Shown here: positions 3,823-59,678 of the stretch, piece by piece
Position numbering within the stretch: position 1 is the first letter of the stretch
How the letters are laid out: each line of letters begins with the position of its first letter
Assembly: GCA_948144175.1 (NCBI GenBank)
Contig: CANXME010001453.1
Location: 1,736,001 to 1,800,000 of the forward strand
From: Closterium sp. NIES-65
Taxonomy: Eukaryota > Streptophyta > Zygnematophyceae > Desmidiales > Closteriaceae
Direction: 5' to 3'
DNA length: 64,000 nt
Notes under the pieces: model-generated
Databases searched by the model: none
The model's input: only the letters and a program-made list of their open reading frames with translations
What the model was told of the DNA's origin: nothing
Program-made: the position numbers and the translations under genes

Positions 3823-3862
3823 CGTCCCCCCCTCAAAGCTGGGTGGCGTGAGAAACACCCTG

Positions 3863-4580: not shown

Positions 4581-4599
4581 ACTAAATGTCCGGGGCGGC

Positions 4600-6500: not shown

Positions 6501-6559
6501 GAATAGATCATCCCTCGGTCCTGCGCTCGAAGCTGCTGACTCCATATCAGTTTTAAATT

Positions 6560-7200
6560 GAGTTGGGTTAGAAGGATTTATCCGAGGCCGATTGAGCTTC
6601 ATCTTGGCCTCGAACCTTCCCTTAAGCCATAGCAGCTGTGTAGGCTTCTCCTGTGGGCAATGGGGAGCCTTAACACTACGTTGCGGGGAGAGAATATTAA
6701 CTCCTTGGAACGCACGACCCTTTTCAATGCTCCGGAGTGGTTTGCCCAACTTCTCAGGTACTTGAATAATGTCCGAAGGCTTTTTCCTGGCCTTGAAATC
6801 TCTCCTGAATTTTTTAAAGGCTTGAAAACCTCGAGAGGGAATATTCTTACTCTCGGGGGTGTTCGGCTGGAGTTTCTTGGTCGGTGGAGAGTCTTGTTTC
6901 GCGGAGCCTCCATTTGTCTCGGCAATTTCCCCTGTTGTCGGCCGGTCGTGACGTTTGAAATTCGCGCCATCGTGTCCTCCTTTTTTTGCCATTGTTGATG
7001 TCGCACTGTTGTTGCCCTGCAGCTCCGCTCGTGCCTTCTTCATTTATCAACATGCCAAGAATCGATGTCCTGGTGCGCCGCAAAAATTGCAATTCATTTT
7101 TGTCGGCCGCTGCTTTGCGTCGATCTTGTCGATATACATCGGGTCGTCGGTCGTGGGTGGTGCCGATCGCTTCGTGTCGAATGATCTGTTTGGCACGTGG
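6560..7200 (-). pseudogene. G1 gag, C-terminal part (left of N1)
   Basis: Lys/Arg-rich minus-strand reading between the zinc-knuckle region and the protease, with blocks shared with G3 such as GFQAFKKFRR and GRAFQGVNILSPQ. It ends at 7196-7200 (CGTGG), one copy of the N1 target duplication. Fossil. Confidence 0.7.
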
Positions 7201-14538: not shown

Positions 14539-16000
14539 ATGGCTACCCCTAGTGTCCTCGCTTTTGACGCCGAGGGTCGAGCCATTGACTTTGACGTCTA
14601 AGTAGATGACCTGCAGCTGTTCTTGCAGTATGATAGGGCACAAGGTCTCTCCCTCTTTGACCTCACCTTTGGTGCCTCTCCTGCTCCTGCTGCTGATGCT
14701 GACGCCACTGTTCGCTCACAGTGGGCCACGCGCGATGCTGCTGCACGTCTTGCTGTGCGTCGCCACCTCCCTACCTCTGAGCGTGCGCACTTTAGTTAGT
14801 ACAAGAGTGCTCAGACCTTGTACGACGCTGTAGTTGCACGCTACTCCTCCCCTGCCACTACTGCACTGAGCCGTCTCATGCTACCGTACCTTTTCTCTGA
14901 CCTTGCTGCCTTTCCCACAGTCACTGACCTCATTACGCACCTCCGCACTAGTGACCCTCGCTACCGCGCTGCGCTTCCTGCTGACTTCTGCGCCAAGAAC
15001 CCCCCCCCCCCATGTACATCACTCTCTACTACATAGTCACTCGCCTCCCTGACTCCCTTCGCGTAGTCAGGGACCACTTTCTCTCAGTCTGTCCCACCAC
15101 TCTCATTGTTGACCTCCTCGAGAAGTCCCTCCTAGCGGCCGAGAAGAGCATAGTCGCTATAGGGGCCTCTTGTGGTGACCCGCGCACCCCCATCTTTGAG
15201 GGGTGTTCCCCCTCCCCCCTTCTGCCCTCTGTTGCCTCTGCTGCTGCGGCCAACCTCCTTGGTCTTGAGTCGGTCGGTGCGGCGTCTGCCTCTAGCGGGA
15301 GACGCCTCTCTGGCAGGGGCAAGGGGGGCAGGGGCGCTGGAGGAGCGAGCGGGGGCGGTGGAGGTGGAGGTGGAGGCGGCGGGAGGAATGGGGGTGGCGG
15401 TGGGAGTGGAGGTGGGGGTGGAGGTGTCGGTGGCGGCAGTGGAGGCGGAGGCGGCGGCGGCAGTGGCGGTGGGAGCGGAGGTGGCGGAGGTGGTGGCGGT
15501 GGAGGAGGCGTCGGAGGCGGCGGTAGTAGCGGAGGCGGCGGAGGCAGCGGAGGCGGCGGGGGTGGCGGTGCAGCTGGTCGCGGGTCTACGCAGAGGAGTG
15601 GCTCCGGTGGTGGTCCACGCCAGCAGCAGCAGCGCGGTCGTGAGACCTTGTCCCCTCAGCAGCTCCGTGAGTGGTACACTGCACGCCAGCGGGGCGGGGG
15701 CTTTGGTCCGTGCACCTACGTCCTGCGCACTGGCGACCGTGCGGGTGAGCAGTGTGGCGGTACGCACCCAACCCAGGGCTGCTTTGGCCGCCAGACGGAC
15801 GCGTGGCGTCACCAGTTCCCTGAGGCCGCAAGAATCCCTCGCTGGGGCGAGCTGTCTAGGGCGGGCCTTGCCATCTATGATCTTGATTTTGATGATATCC
15901 TTTCTGCCATGTATGCTGTGACGATTAGTGATGAGGGTGACTGTTACCGGTGTTTCCCGCCCGACCCGGGCATTGAGACTGCTGCTCTACGTACTGGTGA
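14539..16000 (+). pseudogene. C2 gag fossil
   Basis: Starts with the family-conserved ATG (MATPSVLAFDAEGR), also seen in C3 and C5. Parts: an alpha-helical capsid-like region with the RLMLPYLF and TDLITHLRTSD blocks, a conserved DHFLSVCPTTL block, a very Gly-rich segment (about 15345-15580), then a possible zinc-binding motif C-x13-C-x3-H-x4-C at 15711-15782. The zinc motif spacing differs from the usual retroelement C-x2-C-x4-H-x4-C. Fossil. Confidence 0.85.
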
Positions 16001-16089
16001 GGCTGCTCTTCTAGGTACCAGTGAGGCTCCTGCTCTTGGTGCCAGTGCGTCTGCGTCCTCAGGTGCTGGTGAGTCTGCGCTCTCAGGTA

Positions 16090-17450
16090 CCGCGTCGGCT
16101 TCGCCCTCCCTCACCTTCACACTTGACTCGGGGGCTTCTCGCTCCTTCTTTCGAGACCGCACCACACTCACGCCGCTTGGTCGGCCGGTTGCAGTCTCCT
16201 TGGCAGACCCCTCTGGGGGTCCTGTCCTTTCTCACTTCTCCACTGTCCTCCCGTGTCCGGCGGTCCCTTCTGGCACCTTGTCTAGTTTGTACCTCCCCTC
16301 GTTCCCTATGAACTTGGTAAGTGGTGCTCACCTACAGGATGCGGGGGTTCACCAGTTTTCTCCTGCGAGTCAGAGGGTGACCCACTGCACGGACGCTCGC
16401 ACAGGCCGGCACCTGGCCACGTTTACGCGTCGGCCGGGGTCGAGCCTGTACACCCTAACCACTGAGTCTCCTCGTGTGCCTGCGTCTGGTCAGGTAGCTG
16501 CGTCGGTTCAGGTATTTGGTGCAGCGTCCAGGTCTGGTCCTGAGGCTGCCCCCTGCTCGTGTCGCCTCCTGTCTCACAAGACTCTCCTCTGGCACCACCG
16601 CCTTGGTCACCCCTCCCTGCCTCGTCTCCGAGGCATGGCCTCCCGTGTCCTTGTCTCTGGTCTTCCCCGGTCCCTCCGTCCCCCTCCTCCGGGGCCTGGC
16701 CCCACCTGCGTCCCCTGTGTCGAGGGGCGGCTGCAAGCTGCCCCTCACTCCCCTCAGTTTCCCCCGGCAGAGGCCCCGCTCCAGACGCTTCACATGGACG
16801 TGTGGGGCCCAGCCCGCATCCGCGGACAGGGTCACGAGCGCTACTTCTTGCTGGTGGTTGACGACTACTCGCGTTACACCACAGTCTTCCCCTTGCGCAG
16901 CAAGGGTGATGTCACTGAGGTGCTGATCGACTGGATCCGCGCAGCTCGTCTCCAGCTCAGGAGGAGCTTCGGCTCAGACTTTCCTATTCTGCGTCTGCAC
17001 TCTGACAGAGGTGGAGAGTTCTCCTCTGGCGTTCTGTGAGCCTACTGTTGTGCGCGAGGCATCCGCCAGACCTTCACGCTTCCGGACTCTCCGCAGCAAA
17101 ATGGGAGTGCTGAACGCCGCATTGGCATGGTCATGGACGTCGCCCGTACGTCCATGATGCATGCGGCTGCCCCCCATTTTCTGTGGCCGTTTGCGGTCCG
17201 GTACCCGGCGCATCAGATCAACCTTCACCCCAGGGTCTCCATGCCGGAGACCTCCCCAACTTTGCTGTGGACGGGGAAGGTAGGCGATGCGTCTGCGTTC
17301 CGTGTCTGGGGATCTCGGGCATTTGTCCGCGACTTGTCTGCGGACAAGCTGTCCCCTCATGCTGCTCCTTGTGTCTTCCTTGACTTCCCCCCTGACGCGC
17401 CAGGGTGGCAGTTCTACCACCCCACCTCTAGTCGTGTTGTGTCCTCTTAG
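16090..17450 (+). pseudogene. C2 protease and integrase fossil
   Basis: Protease with the LDSGASRSFF active-site block near 16122-16150. The pre-integrase zinc region has LLWHHRLGHPS (about 16580-16610) and a CVPCVEGR block. The integrase core runs from DVWGPARIRG (about 16800) through DDYSRYTTVF and HSDRGGEFS to FLWPFAV. Together these cut the polyprotein and insert the cDNA (family knowledge). Fossil. Confidence 0.88.
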
Positions 17451-17599
17451 GACGTCATGTTTGACGAGTCGGTCCCCTACTACCGCCTCTTCCCCTACCG
17501 CACTCCGTCCCTCCCCCCGCCACCGCTCTTCCTTGTGCCAGGTCCCCCCCGGTAGACCCCCTGCCCCCTCAAGGTCCTGCCCCTTCAGGTGTGTCCCAG

Positions 17600-17860
17600 G
17601 TAGACGCAGTCGAGCCTGTCGAGGTTACTGGTGACTCTTGTGCTGTTGAGGGTGTGGAGCCTGAGGGTGCTACTACTGGGGGTGCTGAGTCTGGGGGTGC
17701 TGAGCCTGGAGGTGCTACACCTGGGGGTGCTGAGCCTGGGGGTAATGAGCCTGGGGGTGCTACGTGTGAAGGTACTGAGCCTGGGGGTGCGGAGCGTAAG
17801 GGAGCTGGGCCTGCTGGTGCTGTGCCTGGCGGTTCTCTGGGTGCTTCGTCTTGCCGAGAG
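17600..17860 (+). repeat. EPGGA-type pentapeptide linker of C2
   Basis: A 15-bp unit GAGCCTGGGGGTGCT and variants, about 12 copies, reads as (E/A)PGGA pentapeptides between integrase and reverse transcriptase. It occurs in the same position in C1 (two arrays), C3 and C6, so it is a lineage trait. Confidence 0.82.
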
Positions 17861-18189
17861 CCACTCTCTCCAGAGGAGCTGCGTGAGTGGTTTGCCCGGC
17901 GCTGGAGGCGGGTTGCTGGAGCTGGAGGTGCTGCGGGTACTAGAGGTTATGTTGCTGTTGAGGGAGCTGGTGCCACGAGTCCCGGAGGTGCTCGTACTGG
18001 GAGTACTGGAGTTGTTGGACCTGCGCGTACTTCTGGAGCTGGAGCTGCTGCGGGTGTTGGCGCGGAGGCTACTGCTGTTGGTCCTGGAGGCGGCCCTGTT
18101 GGGGGTATTACTGGAGCTGCTGGAGGTACAGGAGCTTGAGCTGCTACTGGTGCTGGTGCTGCCACCTGGGGTGCTCGTGCTGTCCCTAC

Positions 18190-20340
18190 TGTGTCTAGAG
18201 TCGCCGCGCGGCCTCGGCCGTACTTCGTTCCGCTCCTTCAGCAGGTTCTTGGTCTCCCGTCTTCTACTAGTCCTCCTCCTCCCTTAGAGTGTCCACAGCC
18301 TGTCCCGTCTAGTTACAGTTACAGCCGGCCTCCCCACTGCCTACTCCGTCTCCCTACACTGGTCCTACTGGAGGTCTTGCTGAGCGTCGTGAGCCTGCGT
18401 CTCGCCCTGCGTTGCCTGTCTGTGCTGCTCGCACTAGTGGTCGCAGTTCGCGTCAGCGTCCTCCTCTTGTCCCTGGCACGCAACGTATGTCTCTGCATCC
18501 GTCCACTGCTCCTCTCCGTGCTCCTTTGCCTTGTCCTCCTGAGTCTTCTCTTCCTGCTCTTGCCGACCCAGAGTCGGACTCTCTTCGTGCTGCCAGTCCT
18601 ACTGTCACGTGTCTCCTTGCTACTGTCGTCACTGACCCTTTTTTTGAGTCCACTGCTGCGTCTGCCCTAGTTGCTGAGCTCGTCAACATTGCTGCTCGCT
18701 GTCGTCTAGACTACGCTGCTAGTCTGGTCGCTGAGTCTGAGTCTGTCTGTCCTCCGTCCATCGGGGGTGAGTGTGCCCTTGGCACGGACGTCCTTGAGGA
18801 CAGGCAGGAAGAGTTCCAGTGTCTAGCTGCTGCTTCACCTCATCTCGTGTCCGTACTGCTTACCCCTGAGGGAGACCCGGATGCACTTGACATCCCGACT
18901 CCGCGCTCTTACGCGGAGGCCGTAGAGGGTCCCTACTCCTCTCAAAGGCAGGCACCTATGGATGCAAAGATGGCTTCCTGGAGGTCCACTGGCACCTACG
19001 TTGACGCAGTTCCCCCACCTGGGGCGAACATCGTCAGTGGCATGTGGATCTTCAGGGTGAAGCGGCCGCCAGGTTCTCCACCTGTCTTCAAGGCGCGGTA
19101 CGTGGCTCGTGGCTTCAGTCAGCGACGGGGAGTTGACTACTTTCAGACCTTCTCTCCCACCCCAAAGATGACCACTCTTTGGTTGCTGCTGCACATAGCC
19201 GCTCAACGCGACTACGAGCTTCACTCTCTTGACTTCAGCACTGCTTTCTTGCAGGGTAGCCTGCACGAGGAGATCTGGCTGCGCCGCCCACCTAGGTTCA
19301 CTGGGACTTTTCCTCCTGGCACCTAGTGGAGCCTCCGACGACCAGTCTACATCCTCGTGTACGTCGACGACTTGGTCTTTGCCACTTCTGACACTGCTGG
19401 ACTCGCCCACGTGAAGTCCGAGCTGCAGAAGAGACACACGTGCACAGACCTGGGTGAACTGCGCAGCTACCTTGGCTTGCAGATCACCCGGGACAGAGCA
19501 CGACGCACCATTACTCTGACTCAGTCACTCATGGTGCAGCAGGTCGTTCAGCGCTTCGGCTTCACATACTCCTCGCCTCAGGCCACTCCTCTGCCTACTT
19601 GCCACTAGCTCTCAGCTCTGCCTTTGGATGAGTCCGTAGAGTCGAGTGGCCCGTACCCAGAGCTTGTTGGGTGCTTCATGTACCTGATGACCTGCACACG
19701 ACCTGACCTTGCATACCCTCTTAGCATTCTTGCACGCTATGTTGCTCCTGGGAGACACAGACCGGAGCACACGGCTGCAGCGAAGAGGGTGTTGCTCTAC
19801 TTTGTGCAGTACGTCGGGCATGGGGCTAGTGCTTGGAGTGGGGAGTCCAGTGGTCCTCACTGGGCACGCTAACGCTTCTTGGGCTGACGACCAGGCTACA
19901 CAGCGGTCGTCACAGGGTTACACCTTCAGCCTTGGTTCCGGCTCTGTTTCGTGGAGGGCTACTAGCTCGTCTTCCGTTCTTGGCTCCAGTTGTGAGGCTG
20001 AGATCTACGCAGGAGCCATGGCTGCACAGGAGCTTCGCTGGCTCACCTACATGCTGACTGACCTCGGAGAGCCGCCTCGTTCTTCTCCAGTGCTGTACGT
20101 AGACAACAAGGCCATGCTGGACTTGTGTCGGGAGCAGCGCCTGGAGCACAGAACGAAGCACATTGCTCTCCGCTACTTTCTTGCTTGTGAGCTGCAGCAG
20201 CGTGGTCAGTTGCGACTTGCGTACCTGGCCTCTGAGCCCAACACTGCTGATATCTTCACTAAGGCACTTACCCCTTTTGATCATTAGCGCTTCTGTACTC
20301 AGCTTGGTCTTGTGCCTGCCTTGCCTCACTTGCTCACTTC
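18190..20340 (+). pseudogene. C2 reverse transcriptase and RNase H fossil
   Basis: Pro/Ser-rich lead-in, then reverse transcriptase blocks SGMWIFRVKRPPGS, YVARGFSQR, LHSLDFSTAFLQGSLHEEIWL and the catalytic VYVDDLVFAT (about 19360). RNase H follows, with AQELRWLTYM and YVDNKAMLDLC, and the C-terminal ANTADIFTKAL-type end near 20280. A little shorter than C6 around the polymerase active site. Fossil. Confidence 0.87.
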
Positions 20341-20559
20341 TTGACCTTGCTTGTACTGTCATATATATATACTCCTGCTCTTGCTTGTTTAGCCTTATAT
20401 ATATATATATATATATATGCTTCTGCATGTGAACTGGCCTTCTGGCCTTGAACTTGTGCTCGGAATGTGTGGTGACTTTGTGATCCACCCTGAGCTTGCT
20501 TTGCTTTGCTTGACTGGTCTTGTGACCTCTTGTTCTCCCCCACTTTGCCTATGGGGGTG

Positions 20560-20680
20560 TGCCAAATTATAATGTTCTGTAGGCTATAGTGGGGTAGCCT
20601 TTATGGGGTACACAATGCTAGGGTTGCATACTTGTATCACTTTCATTCCTTAGTCAATCAATCTTGTTTCAGTATTCTCA
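20560..20680 (+). repeat. C2 right LTR
   Basis: 121 bp; preceded by the CCCCCACTTTGCCTATGGGGG end block and followed by the GCTCC target copy. Confidence 0.95.
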
Positions 20681-20724
20681 GCTCCACGTATAGAAGTCTT
20701 TGCCGTTAAAACACACACTTGTTT
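20681..20724 (-). pseudogene. X: 44-bp gag island between C2 and C3
   Basis: Between two unrelated LTRs lies a short piece whose minus-strand reading (CFNGKDFYTW-like) fits the start of the X gag. It begins with the GCTCC copy of the C2 insertion and ends with TGTTT (20720-20724), the left target copy of C3. It shows that C2 and C3 hit the same old gene about 40 bp apart. Confidence 0.75.
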
Positions 20725-20847
20725 TGAGAAGAAACGAGAATGAAATGACTAAGGGAATGTTGGGTACAATTACAAACCCTAGAGAGCTGTACCCCATATG
20801 TGCTACCCCACTATAGCCTACAGTAGCTATGTCAAATAAATCTGACA
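20725..20847 (-). repeat. C3 3' LTR
   Basis: 123 bp; adjoins CACCCCCATACGCAAAGTGGGGG, the complement of the polypurine hairpin block. Confidence 0.95.
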
Positions 20848-21129
20848 CACCCCCATACGCAAAGTGGGGGAGAACAAGGGGTCACAAGACTAGTCAAGCA
20901 AAGCAAAGCAAGCTCAGGGTGGATCACAAAATCACCACACATTCCGAAAACAAGTTCAAGGCCACAAGGCCAGTTCACATGCAGGAGTACATATATATAA
21001 AGAACTAGACTAGCAAGAGCAGGTGTATATATATGCAATAGTACAAGCAAGGTCAGGAGGTGAGCAAGTGAGGCAAGACAGGCACAAGACCTAGCTGCGT
21101 GCAGAAGCGCTGATGATCACAAGGCGCAA

Positions 21130-23210
21130 GGGCCTTGGTGAAGAGATCAGCAGTGTTGGCCTAAGAGGCCACGTACGCAAGCCGCAACTGACCACGCTGC
21201 TGTAGATCACGAGTAAGAAAGGAGTGAAGAGCAATGTGCTTTGTTCTGTGCTCCAGTCTCTGCTCTCGACACAAGGCCAGCATGGCCTTGTTGTCTACGT
21301 ACAGGACTGGAGGAGAACGAGGCGGCTCTCCAAGGTCGGTCAGCAAGTAGGTGAGCCAGCAAAGCTCCTGTGCAGCCATGGCCCCGGCGTAGATCTGAGC
21401 CTCTTAACTGGAGCCGAGAACAGAAGACGAGCGGGTAGCCCGGCACGAATCAGAGCCGAACCAAGGCTGAAGGTGTAACCCTGTGACGACCGCTGCGTAG
21501 CCTGGTCTTCAGCCCAAGAAGCGTCCGCGTGCCCAGTGAGGACCACTGGACTCCCCCCTCCAAGCACTAGCCCCATGCGCGACGTACTGCACAAGTAGCG
21601 CAACACCCTCTTCGCTGCAACCATGTGCTCTGGTCGGTGTCTCCCAGGAGCAACATAGCGTGTGAGAATGCTCAGAGGGTATGCAAGGTCAGGTCGTGTG
21701 CAGGTCATCAGGTACATGAGGCAGCCAACAAGCTCTGGATACGGGCCACTCGACTCTTCGAACTCATCCAAAGGCAGAGCTGAGAGCGAGTGGCGAGTAG
21801 GCAGAGGAGTGGCCTGAGGCGAGGAGTACGTGAAGCCGAAGCGATGAAGGACCTCCTGCACCATGTGTGACTGAGTCAGGGTAATGGTGCGGCGTGCTCT
21901 GTCCCGGGTGATCTGCAAGCCAAGGTAGCTGCGCATTTCACCCAGGTCTGTGCACGTGTGTCTCTTCTGCAGCTCGGACTTCACGTAGGCGAGTCCAGCA
22001 GTGTCAGCTGTTGCAAAGACCAAGTCGTCGACGTACAAGAGGATGTAGAACGGCGGCAGAGAAGTGTCGGTGCGCAGAAACAGCGACGGGTCGGCAGTAG
22101 AAGGAGCAAACCCAAGAGCCGCAAGCGTAGTCCTCAGTGTGCCATGCCACTCACGTGGCGCCTGGCGGAGACCGTAGACTGGACGCCGGAGACTCCACTG
22201 GGTACCAGGAGGGAAAGACCCAGTGAAGCCAAGTGGGCGGCGCGGCCAGATCTCCTCGTGCAGGCTCTCATGCAAGAAAGCTGTGCTGAAGTCAAGAGAG
22301 TGAAGCTCGTAGTCACGGTGAGCAGCAACGTGTAGCAGTACCCTAAGAGTGGTCATCTTCGGGGTGGGAGAGAAGGACTGAAAGTAGTCAACTCCCTGCC
22401 GCTGACTAAAGCCACGAGCCACATAACGCGCCTTGAAGACAGGCGGAGAACCCGGCGGCCGCTTCACCCTGAAGATCCACATGCCACTGGCGATGTTCGC
22501 CCCGGGAGGGGGGACAGCGTCAACGTAGGTGCCTGTAGACTTCCACGAAGCCATCTCTGCATCCATAGCTGCCTGGCACTGAGAGGAGTAGGGACCCTCT
22601 ATCGCCTCCGAGTAAGAGCGCGAAGTCAGGATGTCAAGTGCATCCAGGTCTCCCTCAGGGATAAGCAGTACACACACAAGATGAAGTGAAGCACCGGCCA
22701 AGCACTGGAACTCCTCCTGCCTGTCCTCAAGGACGTCCGTGCCAAGGGCACACTCACCCCCGACGGACGGAGGACAGACAGACTCAGACTCAGCGACAAG
22801 ACCAGCAGCGTAGTCTAGGCGACAGCGAGCAGCAAAGACGACGAGCTCAGCAACTAGGGCAGACGCAGCACTGGACTCGAAAGAAGGGTCAGTGACGACA
22901 GTAGCCAGGAGACGTGTGACAGTAGGACTAGCAGCACGGAAAGAGTCCGACTCCGGGTCGGCAAAAGCAGGAAGAGAGGACTCTGGAGGACAAGGCAAAG
23001 GGGCACGCATAGGAGCAGTGGACGGACGCAGAGACATCCTCTGCGTGCCAGGGACAGGAGGAGGACGCTGACGCGAACCACGACCACTAGCGCGAGCAGC
23101 ACAGACAGGCGACGCAGAGCAAGACGCAGGCTCATGACGCTCAGTACGACCTCCAATAGGACCAGTGTAGGGAGAAGGAGCAGGCAAAGGGAAGGTAGGC
23201 TGCAACTGTA
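21130..23210 (-). pseudogene. C3 reverse transcriptase and RNase H fossil
   Basis: Nearly the whole reverse transcriptase is readable: SGMWIFRVKRPPGS, YVARGFSQRQGVDYF, LHSLDFSTAFLHESLHEEIW, GLRQAPREWH and LYVDDLVFATADT (about 22030), then the ITLTQSHMVQ connection and RNase H to about 21150. Length and order match C6. Fossil. Confidence 0.88.
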
Positions 23211-30325: not shown

Positions 30326-31093
30326 TGGTGCCCAAACGGTTTTAAGCGGTGAAGAGACAGACCGCTCCCAACCGTGATGTGAGGAGTTCGACCGAGCTAA
30401 GGAAGCCCAAAATGTAGAAATATGACGCCCCCCGAGCATCTCCATCATCCACACCCCATCCTTTCCAGGATCGCGTTCTGGCAGTCAAGCACACCAATAA
30501 CGTAATTGATCGCAGTTCCGCTGACAGTGTTTCCAGTCGACCGCGTATTCGCGCCATCTCTGCGGCAATGCGAGATGTTGAGTATTAGCGATATGCAGCG
30601 TCGTCCAATCATCAGCGTCGACTCATCCGCCGTGCGCCATCGCCGGATGGCTGCACTAAGGTTCTCCTTCACGCTCTCTTCACCTCCCGCTCTCGTCCCT
30701 CCCCCGGCTATGGCGGCAGTGGTAGCCGTTTTCTCACTACATAAGCGCCCCCCCCCCTTCCCTCCGTTCATCATATCTTGCCATTCCACACGCGTATTCT
30801 TCCTTCTCGCTCTCACCTCACGCATCGCTGCACCTTGCGACGCTTGCGACGCGAAGTCGCACTAATTCGCCGCAAAAGCTCTTTCCGCCACCTCCTGTGG
30901 ACGACGAGAACGACGAGATTGCGCCATTTTTCTTCAGCGTGGCATCCTCCATCGGAACAACAGCCTTCAGTCCAGAGCCGTAGGCGCTACCTAGTGGCGG
31001 ACCGCGGCACCACGTGGTCACGTCACCACGGTGCATCGCCCAGCATCAGTTTCCGTTCGCCATCAACCACTCTAGCCTCTCCGCGTCGTCATC
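30326..31093 (+). promoter_or_regulatory. Upstream region of the host EGF-module gene
   Basis: 768 bp between the MITE-like element and the start codon. A pyrimidine-rich stretch with a C run (about 30745-30760) and GC-rich sequence nearer the ATG are typical of a promoter and 5' leader. No clear TATA box was found; ACATAAGC near 30738 is only a weak candidate. Open frames here have no gene-like features. Confidence 0.35.
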
Positions 31094-34000
31094 ATGGCGC
31101 GTCGCGGCCGGCCACGTTCCGCCCTTCAATCCGGCCTCGCCGCGGCCCTCGCTGCTTTCATTGCCCTCGCGGCGCTCCTCGCGGAAACCAGCGCGTTAAC
31201 GTGCGACACGGATGTGCAGTTCAAAAGCTCGGGTGGACTCTTAGGTGGATTGTTATCGTCAACGTTTTCCAGCGTTAAGAGCGACCCTCTGTGCGACAAC
31301 GTGAATCGCGACAAGTTCGCCAAGGGGTCGCAAGTCTCGGCGACGATCGCGTGGGGCGCAAAGAGCCGCATTATCAATATCGGCAACCCCACGTGCAACG
31401 CCATCGCCTTCCACTCCGCGCGGGACTGCGCGGGAGGCCCCGACGTGACGTACCTGCGCCCCCCGTCGATCCCCGACGACACCAAGTGGTGAGTACGCAC
31501 TCACATCTGCCGCGCAACGGTCAAAGCTTCCTGCCGAGGCAGTTGGGGCAGCTTGTTTGGTTCGGTGGGTGCTGATTTGCCACTCTCTCCACCGTCCACG
31601 TGTCTCTGCGATTGACATGAGCAATCCAGATAATCTCCTGTGCCCCCTCGCCGCCTTTTGAGGCCTTCAAACGTTTTTCACGTATCGCAAGTCTCACCAT
31701 CATTTCGTGTGCGCCCCTGCTGCCGCCATGCCCTCTCGGCTGCTCTCAGGACGCTCAATGCCGCCGACCTGCCAGCGTCAGTGCGATGCGAGAGGGGTAA
31801 GATTGCACGGCTGCACCAGCACTCCTTGCAATGCTCTCCCAGCGGCATGCATGTGCCAAGTCCCGCCGCCCACACTGCACTGCACCGCGCTGCTCAGCTC
31901 TGACTCCTCGGGGTTTGCTGCGGGGTTTGCTGCGGGGTTTGCTGTGTGGTGTAGAGGTGGTGTGGCGCAATGTGGTGTGGTGGTGTGGTGTGGTGTGGTG
32001 GTGTGGTGTGCGCATGCCCAGCCGGAAGGCCGATGCTGAGGTTCATTCAGCATGGTACACGGCATGTGTCACACACACGCTGCCACATGCACGATGCATC
32101 AGCTGCCACGTCACCGACGCCAGCAAGTTGCTGTGTCCTTAGCATCTAGTCGCAAGCTCAATGGGATGTAGAATGCTGCATTTGAACCAGGAACCTCGAT
32201 AATTTCGTTCTTCTCCCTCCGCCTTCCCTCTTATCCTCCCTGCCTCCACGATTGCACCCTGCTTGTCCCTAGGCTGCTGGCTGGACTGTGGGTTGACTGC
32301 TAGGTGCGTCGAGAGGAACGGCAATCAGATATGTGTGTGCCCTCGCTCTCAACTCTACTCCGACAAGCAGAAGGGGTGCTTCGGTGAGTGGCGCATGCAT
32401 GATTGAGTGGGAGTGGTGCATGCATGCGTAAGGAGAGTGAGTGCGTCGTGAGGCAGGCAATGCTCTGAGTGTGGGTGCCCGAGACTCAAGCCTCTCTATT
32501 GGTGAATGTATTTGAGTGCGCCCTGAGAGAGGCAGCCTTCCGTGCTCATCCCTCACCTTGTCACCAGTTCCTTAGAGTGTATGTCACGAGGGGGTGTCAT
32601 GAGGGGGTGTCACGAGGGGGTGTCATGCGGATTGGTCCATTCACCTGACAACCGCTCGCCTATCTGCTTTCGCTCCTTCATGAGCTTTCCCCATGTCAGA
32701 ATGCAGTGGGGGTTGCGGTGAGGTCGCTCAGTGCACTCTGAGGGACGACGGCACATCACAGTGCGTGTGCCCGGGGAGCCTCTCTTTCATCACCGCTACC
32801 AAGACGTGCCAAGGTCAGCACAGCACTGAGCCATGCCGCTCAAGGGTCACTCCTACTCATGCTCCTCAACTGTCGGATGGGTGGCAATGTTTTGTCCCAT
32901 CCTAACCACCATTCGCCTTCTCGTCACTTCTGTTTCTCAAGTGTCGGATGGGCAGCAATTTTTGTCCTTACTTAACCACTGCTCGCCTCTGCAATCCCGT
33001 ATACTCTCCCTGCCTTGCCATCCAGATCCAGCCAAGCCTTCCACGCCAGTGTGCAGTGAGGATTGCGGTGAGACGGCTAAGTGCACTCTGAGGGACGACG
33101 GCACATCACAGTGCGTGTGCCCGGGGAGCCTCTCTTTCATCACCGCTACCAAGACGTGCCAAGGTCAGCACAGCACTGAGCCATGCCGCTCAAGGGTCAC
33201 TCCCACTCATGCTCCTCAACTGTCGGATGGGCGGCAATGTTTTGTCCCAACCACCAAACTCCTTTCTTCACCACTTCTGTTTCTCAAGTGTCGGATGGGC
33301 AGCAGTATTTGTCCTTACCTAACCAACGCTCGCCTCTGCAATCCCGTATACTCTCCCTGCCTTGCCATCCAGATCCAGCCAAGCCTCCCACGCCAGTGTG
33401 CAGTGAGGATTGCGGTGAGACGGCTAAGTGCACTCTGAGGGACGACGGCACATCACAGTGCGTGTGCCCGGGGAGCCTCTCTTTCATCACCGCTACCAAG
33501 ACGTGCCAAGGTCAGCACAGCACTGACCCATGCCGCTCAAGGGTCACTCCTACTCGTCCAGACGAGCCTCCCACGCTGCCAGTGATTTATTTTTATTTTT
33601 TTAAGTTTCTTTTCTTCAGAGTTCTTTCCTCTTAGCTGATGGCTTCCCTGTGTGGGAGAGGCCTTGTGTATATGTTAAACGCCGTGCTCATCTTCCGTCT
33701 ACCTTTCTCTCCCCCCTTCCCCCCTCTCACTCCCCCCTGAATCACGCCAGACATGGATCCGTGTGCGGCTACCAAGTGTACGGCGAATGCGGTGTGCAGT
33801 GCGAAGACGAATGGCAAGGCAAAGTGCGAGTGCAGCACAGGCTTCGTTAAGAAGAATGGCATTTGCACTGGTGAGGAGTGATGGGCAATGTTGAGCACAA
33901 TGCGTTTCTTACATCGCTCGGGAAACTTTGGGGCTCGTGTGACGATTTACGCATGTCTCACTTTCTTCATACCTCAAACATAATCTTGCAACTCCTTCAA

Positions 34001-34581
34001 TACATTTCCATCCTTTTATCGCCTTCACTCCTCGTTCTACCAGATGTGCATCGCATACTTCACACGTCGTTGCGGCGTCTCGTCACTCGGCGTTTTCCTT
34101 TCTGTGGCATCTTTTCCCGTCCGCAGCATTCTGCAAGCCTACCTGCCCCATTAACGCCAAGTGTGCAGTGGTGGCTGCGAAGCCCACATGTCGCTGCGAG
34201 AGTGGATACACCATGATGAGGAAGAATAAGAATAAGAAGAACATCAGCAAGAGCAAGAGTGACATCAAGTGCGTGCGTGTGACCCGGAGGCGCAAACGGG
34301 GAGCTGGACGAACTGCCAAGAACAGTGAGTTGTGTTTTATTCTCCCCACCCCCCTGCAGAAATTTGTGGGTCGCCCCACATTCACCCCACATTCACCCAA
34401 CATTCACCCCACTATCACAGAATGTTTGTAATTTCTCCATCCATCAACACTCCTCATCTACAGCAATCATATCCAGCCAATGATTTTACTGAGTGAATGT
34501 TCTTCCCTATTGTGTGCATTTCCTCCACTCTTTGGTGTGCAGCGGTGGGAGGAGCACCTGGCAAGGGGCTGATGGGTTAAG
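31094..34581 (+). CDS. Secreted protein with six EGF-like modules, nine exons
   Basis: Inferred exons: 31094-31488, 31750-31796, 32273-32383, 32700-32813, 33050-33163, 33397-33510, 33751-33870, 34127-34324 and 34544-34581, all with GT-AG borders and consistent phase (about 416 residues). Residues 1-37 form a signal peptide: Arg-rich start, long Ala/Leu core, cut near TSA. Residues 38-148 are a Cys-containing domain I do not recognise. Each of exons 3-8 is a phase 1-1 exon encoding one EGF-like module, C-x3/4-C-x5-C-x8/9-C-x-C-x10/12-C. The sixth has a Lys-rich 24-residue last loop followed by a basic RRRKRGAGR stretch. Such modules usually mediate extracellular or wall-side protein contacts; the function here is unknown. 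The last exon is the least certain. Confidence 0.75.
31900..32020 (+). repeat. Simple repeats in intron 2 of the EGF-module gene
   Basis: Three copies of a 12-bp unit (TGCTGCGGGGTT, about 31910-31945) are followed by an irregular GTGGTGTG tract (about 31950-32013). Both lie inside the intron at 31797-32272. Confidence 0.8.
32582..32620 (+). repeat. 13-bp triplicate in intron 3
   Basis: Three tandem copies of TGTCAYGAGGGGG and part of a fourth, inside the intron at 32384-32699. Confidence 0.85.
32700..33580 (+). repeat. Tandem exon-intron duplication encoding EGF modules 2-4
   Basis: Three exon copies of 114 bp (32700, 33050, 33397) have a period of 350 then 347 bp. Copies two and three appear identical throughout; copy one differs only in its first 35 bases or so. 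The introns between them are nearly identical, and the duplicated intron sequence fades about 60 bp after the third exon. Because introns are copied too, the event was genomic and recent. The unit is a symmetric phase 1-1 exon, so copy number can change without changing frame. Confidence 0.9.
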
Positions 34582-34638
34582 CAGGGTAGCAGTGGGAGAG
34601 CACCAGGCAAGGGGCTGATGGGTTAAGCAGGATAGCAA
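34546..34638 (+). repeat. Tandem duplication across the proposed stop codon
   Basis: Two copies, 34546-34592 and 34593-34638, of a 46-47 bp unit beginning GTGGGAG and containing GGCTGATGGGTTAA. The first copy supplies the proposed last codons and stop of the EGF-module gene; the second falls in the 3' untranslated region. Confidence 0.85.
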
Positions 34639-51689: not shown

Positions 51690-53310
51690 AAGTAAGAATT
51701 TGTTAAAAGTACCCCATAAAGATGCTCTAACGAAGAATATTGCTTCTCGTGGTTTACAAGCCTTCAAAAAATTCAGGGGAGGTCTAGAGGCCAAGAAAAA
51801 GCCTTTAGAAATTATTCAGGTACCTGAGAAGTTGGGCAAAATACTACGGAGCGTAGAGAAGGGTCGTGCGTTCCGTGGAGTTAATATTCTCTCCCCGCAG
51901 CACAGTATTAAGGCTCCCCGTCGCCCACAGGTGAAGCCTACACAGCTGCCAAGGCTTAGAGGAGACATCCAGGCTCAGGAAAAATTATACAAGCCTCGGA
52001 AAAATCCTCCTACCCCCCAGGTGAAGTTGGAAAGCGCAAAGTCAGGTATAGGAAAAAAGGAAGGTATTAAGTTCGATGTACCCTATGATCCTATTAACGA
52101 GACCCTCTTTGGCTACTCAGCACAACAGAAACCAATACTCCTCGAGGTGTTATGCAATGGGCGACGCCTCCAGGCACTGGTGGACAGCGGTGCATCTCAC
52201 TCGGTGTGTGACTGCGGAGCATTGGAGAAAATTGGAGAGAAGGCGGAAGAGACCCAGTTTTCAGCAACCATGGTGGACGGTACGAAGCTTCCTATCCACG
52301 GCGAAGCATCTCTGCAACTGCAAATAGGTGCGTTGAGGTGGAAGCCGAAGCTACCAGTGACCAACATCAAAGGATTAGATTTTATCTTGGGGCGAGATTT
52401 CCTGAAGCAGTTCAACCCCGAGATCGATTGGGTCAACAGCAAGGTGTGCATCTACAACACAGGAAACGAGTGGAGCTGAAAGGCTGGACGGATACAGGGC
52501 ACATACCTGAAACGACACTGGCACGGTTCGAACAGACGGTGAACAAGAGTAACACGGGTTCCCTAGCACTGGTTATGGCAGCAGCAGAGGAGGAGAAGCC
52601 GAGTTCTGAGCTACCTGCAGCAGTGAAAGAGGTCTTGGAGCAGTACAAGGATATAATGCCTAACGACCTACTTGCAGACGTACCTCCAACACGCACCCAC
52701 GAGCACGAGATTGTGGAGGAACCAGGTGCGAAACCCGTCTCACGTGCACCATACCGACTGAGTCCGACTGAACTGACAGACATGAAAAAACAGATAGAGT
52801 ATCTACTGGACAGACAACTGATCCGCCCATCCACCTCTCCCTACGGCGCACCAATTCTCTTCACTCCAAAACCAGACGGCAGTCTACGGATGTGCATCGA
52901 CTACCGCGCACTGAACAAACAGACAGTAAAAAACAAATATCCCATACCGCGCATAGACGACCTACTCGATCAAATGCGTGGAGCAATAGTATTTTCGAAG
53001 CTCGACCTACGATCGGGCTACTGGCAGATCAAGATGGCAGACAACTCAGAACTAAACTACCCCATTCACGACAAGGAAGCCTTAGCGATAGTCATATCCT
53101 TCAAGGCGTGGAGGTGTTACCTAGAGGGAGCCAAGACTACAGTCTATACTGACCACTTCAGTCTCAAATGCGTGAAGTCACAGCGGACACTCTCACGACG
53201 ACAGGTGCGGTGGGTGGACATCCTGGAAACTCACTTCCACTACGACACTGTCTACAAGCCCGGGCTATACAACAAGGCAGACGCGTTGAGCCGCCCCGGA
53301 CATGTAGCAG
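51690..53310 (+). pseudogene. G3 protease, reverse transcriptase and RNase H fossil
   Basis: A Lys/Arg-rich gag end, then protease LVDSGASHSVC (about 52176-52210) and the [18 protein letters not shown] block. Reverse transcriptase has [22 protein letters not shown] and [15 protein letters not shown] (about 52790-53040), then RNase [19 protein letters not shown] to ADALSRPGH. The polymerase region is shorter than usual for the family. Fossil. Confidence 0.86.
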
Positions 53311-53319
53311 GCATCCAGC

Positions 53320-54320
53320 TCGACGGGATGAACCCTCTGCTCAAGGGTCTATTCCAACATGGGTACTCCGTGGACGCAGAGATTGCTACATCACAGACCA
53401 AGAAGCTATTACAGTGGGAGAAAGACTTTAGCTGTAAGGAAGGGTTCAGGAAAGATTTGGGTACCGAATTACGCCCCGCTACGGCAGATCCTATTGGAGG
53501 AGTTTCACGACGTACCTTACGCGGGACATTTCGGGAGCAACAAGACGTTAGCAGGGATAGCAAAGTATTACTTCTGGCTCGGGATGGCAGCAGACGTGCA
53601 GCAGTTCGTCACCTCTTGCAACACGTGCCAGCGGATGAAGAGCAGCAAGCAGAAAAAAGCCGGGTTACTTCAGCCTCTACTCGTACCGGAGCAGCCATGG
53701 CAGGTCGTTAGCCTCGACTTCATCACAGGGCTTCCTTCGACCTCACGGGGACATGATTCCATCCTCGTGGTGATCGATAAGTTCTCCAAAATGGGTCACT
53801 TCATACCGACCAACGCCACAGCTACAACTGAAGCAACTTCTCGCCTCTTCTTTGACCGCATCATCACCATCCACAGCATCCCCGCTACACTCATCTCAGA
53901 CAGAGACCCCAAATTCACCAGTAGGAGCTCATGGGACTGTTGGGGACAAAGCTTGCAATGTCTTCAGCATACCACCCCCAGACTGACGGACAGACAGAGC
54001 GACTCAATCAAGTGGTTGAGCAGTTACTACGCACAGCTTGCAATGACGACGTCAGCCACTGGGACACACAGTTACCAACCCTAGAGTTTGCTTACAACAA
54101 CGCATCACATGCGGCCACAGGGAAAACTCCTTTCTTCCCGTGTTACGGACGGGAACCACTCACACCACAGCAGCCAACTACACCGGCACACGTCCAAGCC
54201 GCACATGACTTCGTCACCACCATGCAGCAGCTATGGGAGAAGACTCAGCAACGTCTCACCACAATGCAGAACTCCCAGAAGCAGTATGCCAATCGTCAGC
54301 GGCGTGATCACTCAGTAGCT
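53320..54320 (+). pseudogene. G3 integrase fossil
   Basis: Zinc-binding part with H...H and [13 protein letters not shown], then the core: [35 protein letters not shown] and SAYHPQTDGQTERLNQ, with the catalytic D-D-E regions recognisable, then FAYNNASHAATGKTPFF. It stops at QRRDHSVA where C6 begins. Fossil. Confidence 0.87.
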
Positions 54321-56690
54321 CGCCTCCCTGACTCCCTTTGTGTAGTCCGGGACCACTTCCTCGCGGTCTGTCCCACCACCCTCACAGTCGAGTGCCTCGA
54401 GAAGGCCCTCCTTGCAGCAGAGAAGAGCATAGTTGCTGTAGGAGCCTCTCGAGGTGACCCCCGCGCCCCCATCTTTGAGGGGTGTTCTCCTTCCCCTCTC
54501 CTGCCCTCTGTCGCCTCTGCCGCTTCGGCCGACCTCGTTGGTCTTGAGTCGGTCGGTGCGGCGTCTGCCCCTAGCGGGAGACGCTGCTTTGGCAAGGGCA
54601 AGGGGGGCAAGGGAGCGGGTGGGGCCAGTGGGGGCGGTGGCGGTGGAGGTGGAGGCGGCGGAGGGAGTGGGGGTGGCGGTGGAGGTAGTAGCGGGGGTGG
54701 GGGTGCTAGTGGCAGCAGTGGAGGCGGGAGTGGCGGCGGCGGTGGCGATGGTAGCGGAGGTGGCGGAGGTGGCGGCGGTGGAGGTGGAGGCGGGGGCGGT
54801 GGAGGCGGAGGCGGGGGTGGCGGAGGTGGAGGTGGTCGGAGTAGAGCTTCGCAGCGGAGCGGCACTGGTGGCGGTCAGTGCCAGCAGCAGCAGCAGCAGC
54901 AGCGTTCTCGCGACGTCCCCACCCCTCAGCAGCTCCGTGAGTGGTACACGCAGCGTCAGCGCGGTGGGGGTTTTGGTCCCTGCACCTACGTTCTCCGCAC
55001 TGGAGAGCAGTGTGGGGGTGCCCACTCCGCCCAGCGCTGCTTTGGCCGCCTGACGGACGCTTGGCGTCAGCAGTTCCCGGAGGCCACGGAGATCCCCCGC
55101 TGGGGAGAGTTGTCTAGGGCCGGTGTAGCTATCTTTGATCTTGATTTTGATGCTATTCTTGCTGCCATGTATGCTGTGACCATTAGTGAGGAGGGTGATT
55201 GTTACCGGTGTTTCCCGCCCGACCCGGGCATTGGTACTGCTGCTCCAGGTGCCGGTGAGGCTTCTGCTCTAGGTGCCCGTGCGTCTGTGCTCCCAGGTAC
55301 TAGTGCGTCTGCGCTCTCCGGTACTGCGTCGGCTTCGGCCTCCCTCACCTTCACTCTTGACTCTGGAGCGTCTCGCTCTTTCTTTCGAGACAGCACCACA
55401 CTTACGCCGCTTAGTCGGCCAGTTGCGGTTTCCCTGGCTGACCCGTCTGGGGGTCCTGTCCTGGCTCGCTTCTCCACGGTCCTCCCGTGTCCGGCGGCTC
55501 CCTCTGGCACCCTGTCTGGTCTCTACCTCCCCTCGTTCTCTACAAACTTGGTGAGTGGTGCTGACCTACAGGATGTGGGAGTCCACCAGATCACCCCTGC
55601 TAGTCAGCGAGTGACGCACTGCACGGAGGCTAGCACGGGTCGTCACCTGGCTACGTTTACACGTCAGCCAGGGTCGAGCCTGTACATACTGACCACTGCT
55701 TCTCCTCCAGGTGCTGAGTCTGGTAGAGTCCCTTCGTCTGGTCAGGTGTTTGCTGCAGCGTCCAGGTCTGGTCCTGAGTCTGCCCCTTGTTCGTGTCGCC
55801 GTCTGTCTCACGAGGCCCTCCTCTGGCACCACCGTCTTGGCCACCCCTCTCTGCTTCGGCTCAGAGGCATGGCCTCCCGTCTTCTTGTGTCTGGTCTCCC
55901 CCGGTCTCTACCTCCCCTTCCTCAGGGCCCTGGCCCTGCCTATGTCCCCTGTGTCGAGGGGCGCCAGCGTGCTGCCCCCCACTCCTCCCAGTTTCTTCCG
56001 ACAGAGGCTCCGTTGCAGACGCTTCACATGGACGTGTGGGGCCCTGCCCGCGTCCGTGGACTCGGTCACGAGCGCTACTTCCTGCTGGTGGTTGACGACT
56101 ACTCGCGTTACACCACAGTCTTCCCCTTGCGCAGCAAGGGTGATGTCACTGAGGTGCTGATCGACTGGATCCGCGCTGCTCGTCTCCAGCTCAGGCAGAG
56201 CTTTGGCTCGGACTTTCCTGTGTTGCGTCTGCACTCGGACAGAGGCGGAGAGTTCTCCTCTGGCCTTCTGCGTGCCTACTATCGTGCGCGAGGCATCCGC
56301 CAGACCTTCACGCTTCCGGACTCCCCGCAGCAAAATGGGATTGCAGAGCGCCGCATTGGCATGGTCATGGACGTCGCTCGTACGTCCATGATGCATGCGG
56401 CTGCCCACCATTTGCTGTGGCCGTTTGCGGTCACGTACGCGGCGCATCAGATCAACCTCCACCCCAGGGTCTCCAGGCCGGAGACCTCCCCAGCCCTTCT
56501 GTGGACGGGGAAGGTTGGCGATGCATCGGCGTTCCGGGTCTGGGGATCTCGAGCGTTTGTCCGCGACTTGTCTGCGGACAAGCTGTCCCCTCGCGCTGCT
56601 CCCTGCGTCTTCCTGGGGTTCCCCCCCGACGCCCCTGGGTGGCAGTTCTACCACCCCACCTTTCGACGTGTTCTGTCCTCATAGGACGTC
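54321..56690 (+). pseudogene. C6 gag, protease and integrase fossil
   Basis: Gag with the DHFLAVCPTTL block, a Gly-rich run of some 80 residues (about 54620-54840), a Gln run, and a Cys/His motif with shorter spacing, C-x9-C-x3-H-x4-C (54981-55040). Protease LDSGASRSFF (about 55357-55385). Pre-integrase LLWHHRLGHPS (about 55818). Integrase DVWGPARVRG, DDYSRYTTVF (about 56095), HSDRGGEFSS and PQQNGIAERRIG. An open reading frame runs across the G3 boundary into gag as the sequence stands. Confidence 0.88.
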
Positions 56691-56859
56691 ACGTTCGACG
56701 AGTCGGTACCCTACTACCGCCTCTTCCCCTACCGCACTCCGTCCCTCCCCCCGCCCCCGCTCTTCTTGGTACCAGGTCCCCCCCCGGTAGACCCCCTCCC
56801 CCCTCAGGGTCCTGCCCCTTCAGGTGTGTCCCAGGTAGACGCGGTCGAGCCTGTCGAGG

Positions 56860-57090
56860 TCACTGGTGACTCTGGTGCTGCTGCGGGAGCTGAGCCTGGG
56901 GGTGCTGAGATTGGAGGTACTACGCCTGCGGGTGCTGAGCCTGGGGGTGCTGAGCCTGGGGGTGCTGTGCCTGGGGGTACTGAGCCTGGGGGTGCTGTGC
57001 CTGGGGGTACTGAGCCTGGGGGTGCTGAGCTTGGGGGTGCTGAGACTGGGGGTGCTCCGCCTGGAGGAGCTTCGTCTCGCCGAGAGCCAC
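56860..57090 (+). repeat. C6 EPGGA-type linker array
   Basis: About 14 tandem 15-bp units of the GAGCCTGGGGGTGCT type between integrase and reverse transcriptase. Confidence 0.82.
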
Positions 57091-57399
57091 TCTCCCCTCA
57101 GGAGCTATGTGAGTGGTTTGCCAGGCGCTGGAGGCGTGCAGCTGGTGCTGGAGGTTCTTCGGCTGCAGAGGGTACTGCTGCCGAGCGTCTCGGCGGTGCT
57201 CGTACTGTGGGTGCTGGAGCAGCTGGGTCTAAGGGTTCTCCTGGAGCTGGTGCTGCTGAGGGTGTTGACGCTGAGACTGCCGCTGGAGGTCCGACTGGTG
57301 GTGCAACTGGTGATACTGCTGGAGGTTCATGAGCTACTGGAGATGCTGCTGGAGCGGGTACTCCTGGTGGGGGTACTGGTGCTGTCCTTGCTGTTTCTG

Positions 57400-59678
57400 G
57401 CGTCGCCGCGCGGCCCCGGTCGTACTTCGTTCCGCTCCTGCAGCAGGTTCTTGGTCTTACACCTTCTCCTGGTCCTCCTCCTCCTCCCTTAGAGGGTCCT
57501 CAGCCTGTCTCGTCACACTCACAGCTACAGCCTGCCTCACCTTTGCCTGCTCCTTCTCCCTACGCTGGTCCGACTGGAGGTCTTACTGAGCGTCGTGAGC
57601 CTGCGTCTCGTCCTGCGTCGCCTGTTCGTACTGCGCGCACTAGTGGTCGTGGTTCCCGTCAGCGTCCTCCTCCTGTCCCTGGCACGCACCGGATGTCTCT
57701 GTGTCCGTCTACTGCTCCTCTGCGTGCCCCTTTGCCTTCTCCTCCTGCTTCCTCTCTTCCTTCTCTTGCCGACCCGGAGTCGGACTCTCTTCGTGCTGCT
57801 AGTCCTACTGTCACGCGTCTTCTTGCTACTGCTGTCACTGACCCTTCTTTCGAGTCTTTTGCTGCGTCTGCCCTTGTCACTGAGCTCGTCGACTTTGCTG
57901 CGCGCTGTCGCCTAGACTACGCTGCTAGTCTTGTCGCTGAGTCTGAGTCTGCCTGTCCTCCGTCCGTCGGGGGTGAGTGTGCCCTTGGCATGGACGTCCT
58001 TGAGGACAGGCAGGAGGAGTTCCAGTGTCTGGCCCCCGCTTCACCTCATCTCGCGTCTGTACTGCTAGCCCCTGAGGGAGACCCGGATGCACTTGACATC
58101 CCGACTCCGTGCTCTTACGCGGAGGCGATAGAGGGTCCCTACTCCTCTCAGTGGCAGGCAGCTATGGATGCAGAGATGGCTTCCTGGAAGTCCACAGGCA
58201 CCTACGTCAACGCTGTTCCCCCTCCTGGGGCGAACATCGTTAGTGGCATGTGGACTTTCAGGGTGAAGCGGCCGCCGGGTTCTCCGCTTGTCTTCAAGGC
58301 GCGTTACGTGGCTCGTGGCTTCAGTCAGCGGCAGGGGGTTGACTACTTTCAGACCTTCTCCCCCACCCCGAAGATGACCACTCTTCGGGTATTGCTGCAC
58401 GTTGCTGCTCACCGTGACTACGAGCTGCACTCTCTCGACTTCAGCACAGCTTTCTTGTACGGCAGCCTGCACGAGGAGATCTGGCTGCGTCGCCCACCTG
58501 GCTTCACTGGGTCTTTCCCTCCTGGTACCCAGTGGAGTCTCCGGCGTCCAGTCTACGGTCTCCGCCAGGCGCCACGTGAGTGGCACGACACACTGAGGAC
58601 TACGCTTGCGGCACTTGGGTTTGCTCCTTCTACTGCCAACCCGTCGCTGTTTCTGCGCACCGACACCTCTCTGCCGCCGTTCTACATCCTCGTGTACGTC
58701 GACGACTTGGTCTTTCCCACAGCGGATACTGCTGGACTTGCTTACGTGAAGTCCGAGCTGCAGAAGAGACACACGTGCACTGACCTGGGTGAACTACGCA
58801 GCTACCTTGGCTTGCAGATCACCCGGGACAGAGCACGCCGCACCATTACCCTGACTCAGTCACACATGGTGCAGCAGGTCCTTCAGCGCTTCGGCTTCAC
58901 GTACTCCTCGCCTCAAGCCACTCCTCTGCCTACTCGCCACTCGCTCTCAGCTCTGCCTTCGGATGAGTCCGTAGAGTCGAGTGGCCCGTATGCAGAGCTT
59001 GTTGGCTGCCTCATGTACCTGATGACCTGCACACGACCTAACCTTGCATACCCTCTCAGCATTCTCGCACGCTATGTTGCTCCTGGGAGACACCGACCAG
59101 AGCACATGGCTGCAGCGAAGAGGGTGTTGCGCTACTTGTGCAGTACATCGGGCATGGGGCTAGTGCTTGGAGGGCGCAGTCCAGTGGTCCTCACTGGGCA
59201 CGCGGACGCTTCTTGGGCTGACGACCAGGCTACGCAGCGGTCGTCACACGGTTACACCTTCAGCCTTGGTTCAGGCTCTGTCTCGTGGCGGGCTACTCGC
59301 TCGTCTTCTGTTCTCGGCTCCAGTTGTGAGGCTGAGATCTACGCCGGGGCTATGGCTGCTCAGGAGCTTCGCTGGCCCACCTACCTGCTGACCGACCTTG
59401 GAGAGCCGCCTCGTTCTCCTCCAGTCCTGTACGTAGACAACAAGGCCATGCTGGCCTTGTGTCGAGAGCAGCGACTGGAGCACAGAACAAAGCACATTGC
59501 TCTCCGCTACTTTCTTGCTCGTGAGCTGCAGGAGCGTGGACAGTTGCGACTTGCGTACGTGGCCTCTGAGGCCAACACTGCTGATGTCTTCACCAAGGCA
59601 CTTGCGCCTTGTGATCATCAGCGTTGCTGCACGCAGCTGGGTCTTGTGCCTGTCTTGCCTCACTTGCTCACTTCTTGA
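57400..59678 (+). pseudogene. C6 reverse transcriptase and RNase H fossil, well preserved
   Basis: Ser/Pro-rich lead-in, then SGMWTFRVKRPPGS (about 58243), YVARGFSQRQGVDYF, LHSLDFSTAFLYGSLHEEIWL, GLRQAPREWH and the catalytic VYVDDLVF (58692-58715). The connection and RNase H follow, with GHADASWADDQATQ (59197), SSCEAEIYA, YVDNKAMLALC and EANTADVFTKAL, ending near 59678. It served here as the reference for recognising the parallel parts of C1, C2, C3 and C5. Confidence 0.9.

Follow-up and report, generated by a model that had tools for sequence, protein, structure and literature searches.

The locus analysed here raises the question of how a gene comes to carry three closely similar exons in a row, each encoding one EGF-like module, and whether the number of such modules still changes. 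The gene lies within a window of 64,000 nucleotides (the whole stretch of DNA that was analysed, C1450:1736001-1800000), and searches for related sequences covered an assembly of 874 Mb in 2400 contigs. The explanation that we consider likely is that the gene is nuclear, belongs to a green plant, encodes a predicted secreted multi-EGF protein, and has gained and lost modules by recombination between phase-1 introns.

The corrected gene model comprises nine exons with 1299 coding bases, including the stop codon, and predicts a protein of 432 residues (Table 1). Exon 1 was placed from its open reading frame and the donor AGTG/gtgagt; a phase-2 donor is found at the same point in the paralogs, and the exon is 39-47% identical to six paralog sequences. 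A first model, in which the EGF exon started at 32304 and exon 2 was missing, contained only half a module at this point. It was ruled out by the paralogs, in which the phase-2 end of exon 1 does not fit the phase-1 start of the EGF exon, a mismatch that a microexon reconciles. The 47-nt exon 2 restores the frame between exons 1 and 3, and a counterpart of 47 or 50 nt with the pattern W...[LM]P-x-S-x-x-C occurs in all eight paralog stretches scanned (L043 left out), several of which are near-duplicates. From intron 2 onward every intron is predicted to be in phase 1. The splicing of the nine-exon model is predicted from the sequence; for exon 9 another acceptor, giving an exon start at 34656, is possible. 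The predicted last exon and stop codon are overlapped by a 46-base tandem duplication (34541-34637, 2.1 copies, 92% matches).

Table 1. Predicted features of the EGF-module gene (window positions)
Feature	Position	Strand	Description
Exon 1	31094..31488	+	Start codon, predicted signal peptide and most of the N-terminal domain; ends in phase 2
Exon 2	31750..31796	+	47-nt microexon, phase 2 to 1 (W-TLNAADLPASVRCER)
Exon 3	32273..32383	+	First EGF-like module, type A, phase 1-1; six-Cys pattern and splice sites
Exon 4	32700..32813	+	EGF-like module of type A, unit A, phase 1-1
Intron 4 (unit A)	32814..33025	+	93.7% identical to intron 5
Exon 5	33026..33163	+	Pro-rich linker and EGF-like module of type A, unit B, phase 1-1
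Intron 5 (unit B)	33164..33372	+	
Exon 6	33373..33510	+	Linker and EGF-like module of type A, unit C; 137/138 bases as in exon 5
Candidate lost fourth unit, linker remnant	33557..33584	+	Inside intron 6; local alignment compared with shuffles
Exon 7	33751..33870	+	EGF-like module of type B, phase 1-1; similar exon in paralogs
Exon 8	34127..34324	+	EGF-like module of type C with long basic insert, phase 1-1
Exon 9	34543..34580	+	End of the protein, stop TAA; least certain exon

A preliminary description of this DNA had proposed exons of symmetric phase in a secreted EGF-module gene, and the reading frames and predicted splice sites agree with EGF-type exons of phase 1-1. It had also placed the acceptor of exon 5 at 33049/33050. 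This site is retained as an in-frame alternative, but the first AG past the pyrimidine tract ends at 33025, and at 33372 for exon 6, giving exons of 138 nt. With this first acceptor, the exons that follow introns 4 and 5 gain a Pro-rich linker (DPAKPSTPV or DPAKPPTPV). Further in-frame acceptors lie 6 and 24 bases downstream, for exon 5 after 33031 and 33049, and the choice of acceptor for exons 5 and 6 is uncertain. These additional sites favor variation in splicing and symmetric exons can be skipped without a change of frame, such that exons 5 and 6 might be alternatively spliced cassettes, with splicing rather than genomic copy number setting the number of modules. We regard this as unlikely, given that frame-preserving exon skipping is reported, in the accessible sections of PMC8001218 and PMC6335736, to be enriched in animals and not in plants.

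The predicted protein begins with a hydrophobic, signal-peptide-like N terminus, as judged by eye from the translation, and an N-terminal domain of ~110 residues for which the corrected protein gave no Pfam match. This is followed by six EGF-like modules in the order A-A-A-A-B-C and a short tail. Five of the six modules match a strict six-cysteine EGF pattern that includes C-x-C, and the module of exon 8 has six cysteines with a last loop longer than the strict pattern allows. The Pfam EGF cut-off of 27 bits was not reached, the best scores being 25.2 bits in the first model and 23.2 bits in the corrected protein. In the latter, the scan returned EGF-type models and one non-EGF match (E 6.6) only, with no enzyme domain and no ligand-binding domain identified. 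A phmmer search of solved structures matched a chain of the multi-EGF Rh5-interacting protein (E 5.2e-7), NELL1 (4.5e-4), and LRP6 (0.0019), which shows EGF-like character only and not function. For this search and that of the genome, the query was the earlier 406-residue model without exon 2. As the start is signal-like, the modules are cysteine-rich, and the Pfam scan gave no enzyme domain, we infer a protein that is secreted or resides in the wall or mucilage, and whose several similar type-A modules would provide length and multivalency.

Three tandem units of ~350 bp, each composed of an EGF-type exon and an intron, occupy 32700-33555. The tandem exon duplication noted in the preliminary description is real: Tandem Repeats Finder reports 32702-33555 with a period of 347, 2.4 copies, 94% matches, and a score of 1522, and a repeat search recovers three in-register copies with start-to-start spacings of 350 and 347. 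The claimed identity of exons 5 and 6 was likewise reproduced, at 114 of 114 bases for their cores (33050-33163 and 33397-33510), with 137 of 138 bases identical in the longer forms. Exon 4 differs from each of them at 8 of 114 bases, and in its alignment with exon 5 all eight differences fall within its first 30 bases. The description of the introns as almost identical was overstated, however, as introns 4 and 5 show 13 mismatches in 207 ungapped columns plus seven gap columns, and the likeness of intron 6 to the array introns is confined to its first 45 bases (two differences).

Units B and C differ at only 3 of 183 comparable bases. Because the divergence of units A and B differs from that of B and C, the array points to two duplications, and the type-A module would have been copied at least twice, in an older A/B event (introns about 6% apart) and a younger B/C event (about 1.6%). 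The proposed recent origin therefore suits units B and C and less so units A and B, the older duplication being less recent than was first thought because of the intron 4/5 divergence. Units A and B, moreover, differ at clustered sites, with 124 successive alignment columns free of differences (reached by 4 of 20,000 random placements) and both intron ends clean (7 of 20,000). Gene conversion or constraint could account for the 124-column stretch, which leaves the ordering and dating of the duplications soft.

A repeat of this kind could in principle be a false duplication introduced at a read or contig join, and duplicate stretches do exist in the assembly: C1420:1-1817 is identical to part of a related array on C1052, which may thus be assembled twice. 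Such an artefact would copy exactly, whereas introns 4 and 5 have diverged by the substitutions and gaps given above and exon 4 by its eight differences, and the whole array spans less than 0.9 kb inside a contig of 4.1 Mb. The concern raised in the preliminary description that the repeat is an assembly artefact was thus not borne out, and we consider this origin most improbable.

Directly after the 45 copied bases, intron 6 contains a 28-base stretch (33557-33584) that resembles the start of the linker in exons 5 and 6. Its local alignment score of 18 is reached by 3 of 3000 dinucleotide shuffles of the 195-nt intron remainder and by none of 3000 dinucleotide shuffles of the adjoining 60 nt, and 500 mononucleotide shuffles peak at 17. 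The simplest reading is that this stretch is probably the remnant of a fourth unit, most of which has been lost.

The protein search of the genome gave 44 matches at E values up to 0.001, seven of which are the window gene itself. Paralogs that match exon 1 were found on C2025 (two), C1840 (two), C321, C655 (two), C1692, and C520, with a weaker partial exon 1 match at C1840:1732722. By the strict pattern, four intact type-A modules are present in the window gene compared with zero or one in nine paralog stretches (L040-L048): seven of these contain one intact A module, and L047 and L048 contain none. A B and a C module are also present in L040-L043. Two decayed A exons precede the intact one in L040, L042, and L043, and L041 has one decayed and one intact A exon. 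The A-B-C order together with the N-terminal domain is found on C1450, C2025, and C1840. The same module order occurs on C1052 in L049 (C1052:837000-846900), a 9.9-kb stretch that shows no match to the N-terminal domain. Here nine type-C exons stand in a row (positions 3686-7062 of the stretch), forming an array larger than that of the window gene, in which five of the eight steps measure 337-357 bases; in two neighboring units the exons are 99.1% and the introns 86.5% identical. The DNA upstream of the window gene (30601-30845) is 65-77% conserved before several paralogs and also on C773, C1652, and at C1840:1733311, which suggests a shared promoter or 5' leader.

Substitution patterns within these arrays were compared at nonsynonymous (pN) and synonymous (pS) sites. 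Selection across the family appears mixed, with a pooled pN of 0.076 below the pS of 0.193 in the L049 array, little difference in L061 (pooled pN 0.197, close to pS 0.226), and the reverse between exons 4 and 5 (pN 0.060 and pS 0.033, from 5.2 and 0.8 changes, respectively), where there is no sign of purifying selection because pN exceeds pS. General concerted evolution of the exons was rejected for the C1052 array, in which pS (0.193) compares with an intron p of 0.262, and homogenization of exons in L061 is unsupported (pS 0.226 and intron 0.229). Exon homogenization is local at most, as in units 3 and 5 of L049 (pS 0.045 and intron 0.260).

The values for exons 4 and 5 and for L061, together with the decayed A exons that sister genes carry in their introns, would fit a gene that is itself a decaying pseudogene in which the repeat is neutral. 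Against this, all nine exons of the window gene are open, in frame, and bounded by predicted GT-AG splice sites, the microexon and exon 1 are conserved among the paralogs, and pN lies below pS in the C1052 array. Decay of the gene is consequently an improbable explanation.

The preliminary description had suggested that module number can vary between individuals. In its strongest form, the array would be a population-variable recognition gene in which differences in module number are selected for diversity. Phase 1-1 exons permit such variation and the probable loss of a unit from intron 6 fits it. L040 and L041 are tandem paralogs whose 5' parts share 98.0% identity across 2763 aligned bases. 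With decayed exons counted they hold three and two A-type copies, respectively, but each has a single intact A module. Turnover of modules is further favored by the decayed exons and by the four A modules of the window gene compared with zero or one in its paralogs, although all of these are differences between genes and not between alleles of individuals. The number of modules is constant in three other sets of near-duplicates, with one A module each in L045 and L046, none in L047 and L048 by the strict pattern, and four C-type hits in six of six copies of the C1813-type gene. A DNA search, in which very common words were skipped, found no second copy of the array in the assembly, and the stretch 30600-31500 has no other match there above 82% identity or about 245 bases. 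Because the array DNA occurs only here and the matches to 30600-31500 are weak, no second allele of the array locus was found. Furthermore, exons 5 and 6 encode the same module and so add length without sequence diversity. Taken together, these data make a population-variable recognition gene quite unlikely, and gain and loss of modules by recombination between phase-1 introns is the reading that we retain.

The phases of the introns were assessed across the family by calling the nearest plausible donor and acceptor, blind to frame, around 42 EGF modules in nine stretches, one of them on both strands. The donor patterns allowed for GTCAG, a form found in the window gene, and recurring peptides were removed from all stretches other than the window and L049. 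The set omits the near-duplicates L042, L043, L046, and L062, and L047 and L048, which have no pattern match. Phase 1 was called for 35 of 36 callable donors and 31 of 32 callable acceptors, counts that come from related modules and are not independent. By module, 28 of the 42 are (1,1), two are discordant (one 1-0 and one 0-1), and 12 lack one or both calls. One third of sites would be expected in phase 1 by chance if sites were independent, and duplicated modules inherit their phases. On predicted splice sites, the modules of this family are class 1-1 in the animal sense.

The surroundings of the gene and of its paralogs bear on the genome to which it belongs. Matches to the chlorophyll a/b-binding family above the cut-off were found on C1450 (one, 39.6 bits), C1052, C1840, C2025, C655, and C1692, all of them contigs with EGF relatives, and on the last five the matches fall into pieces as if interrupted by introns. 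Other contigs carry cellulose synthase genes, and plastid rbcL is full length, with solved relatives that we take to include entries from pea, spinach, and Chlamydomonas, the best being 9chz. Because of these chlorophyll a/b-binding, cellulose synthase, and rbcL matches, the EGF gene is assigned to a green-plant nuclear genome, probably that of a streptophyte. The EGF paralogs on C2025 and C1840 form pairs 64 and 71 kb apart with chlorophyll a/b-binding genes nearby, one of which lies within about a kilobase of the second C2025 EGF copy. Several rbcL copies in both orientations are found per contig, for example on C1848, C2174, and C75, as if concatemers of plastid DNA had been assembled. A genome-wide search with the Pfam EGF_3 model gave no match, and its controls were likewise unmatched. 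In a search for radial-spoke genes, aimed at separating flagellate from non-flagellate lineages, none of the controls matched.

Within the window, eight open reading frames of at least 300 codons are listed and six were scanned, of which five match reverse transcriptase or integrase models of the copia or gypsy type and one has no match. Earlier ranking of the EGF gene as the most interesting locus of the window is reasonable on this comparison with other large open reading frames. Retrotransposon open reading frames for integrase and reverse transcriptase flank the gene at 15012-23037 and 52575-59678, and 15-base tandem repeats of GGGGGTGCTGAGCCT or its complement occur at several sites. Scans of the window with Rfam (at the gathering threshold) and for tRNA were empty.

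Collectively, these data suggest a mechanism in which each EGF-like module corresponds to one exon between phase-1 introns, and unequal recombination between similar introns would add or remove a whole module with the frame kept. Intron 6 appears to have lost one more unit. The genes of the family appear to share an A-B-C core of modules, and the module that was amplified differs from gene to gene. A longer protein with several like modules in the cell wall or mucilage would be the likely result, giving multivalency or reach. The repeat, the reading frames and phases, and the paralogs with their module differences are direct observations; splicing, secretion, recombination as the mechanism, and an extracellular role are what we infer from them.

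EGF-like modules are familiar in green plants from the wall-associated kinases and vacuolar sorting receptors, in which a few of them stand beside a kinase or PA domain, respectively. The window protein is like these in carrying such modules and unlike them in that its Pfam scan gave only EGF-type matches and the one non-EGF match noted above. EGF is also counted among the class 1-1 modules shuffled in Metazoa. The window gene resembles these in that each module is a single exon flanked by phase-1 introns, in its predicted extracellular multidomain product, and in the tandem growth of modules; it differs in its green-plant host, in an N-terminal domain that has no Pfam match, and in Pfam EGF scores below the threshold. 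In their accessible sections, PMC8001218 and PMC6335736 regard symmetric class 1-1 modules as a trait of Metazoa that is linked to the multicellularity of animals, the former describing them as the currency of exon shuffling and asking why such shuffling is restricted to Metazoa, and the latter giving exon shuffling a minor role in plants, with a printed reviewer comment that disputes parts of the argument. The closest non-animal parallel that we discuss is that of the brown-algal ROCO genes, in which, according to the available part of PMC11378527, one LRR motif per exon is shuffled and diversifying selection is reported. The two cases share a lineage outside the animals and a single repeat that is a single shuffling exon, although the ROCO motifs are LRRs in GTPases and those described here are EGF-like modules in a predicted secreted protein.

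EGF exon arrays in streptophytes were absent from the open literature searched, which was of limited coverage. It is plausible, if not quite probable, that this lineage independently evolved animal-style class 1-1 EGF exon shuffling, in a family of predicted secreted proteins with interchangeable one-exon modules that are still gained and lost and with different genes amplifying different modules from the shared A-B-C core. If this is true, a green plant with class 1-1 EGF-type exons by the dozen, in arrays that are growing, would be an independent case. It could show whether the argument set out in PMC8001218, which is based on the proto-splice site and glycine linkers, is enough to explain the phase-1 bias with no feature peculiar to animals. 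By mechanism the window gene is an ordinary exon duplication; it is unusual by lineage, and its main interest lies in the presence in a green plant of class 1-1 EGF exon arrays, which have been described as metazoan.
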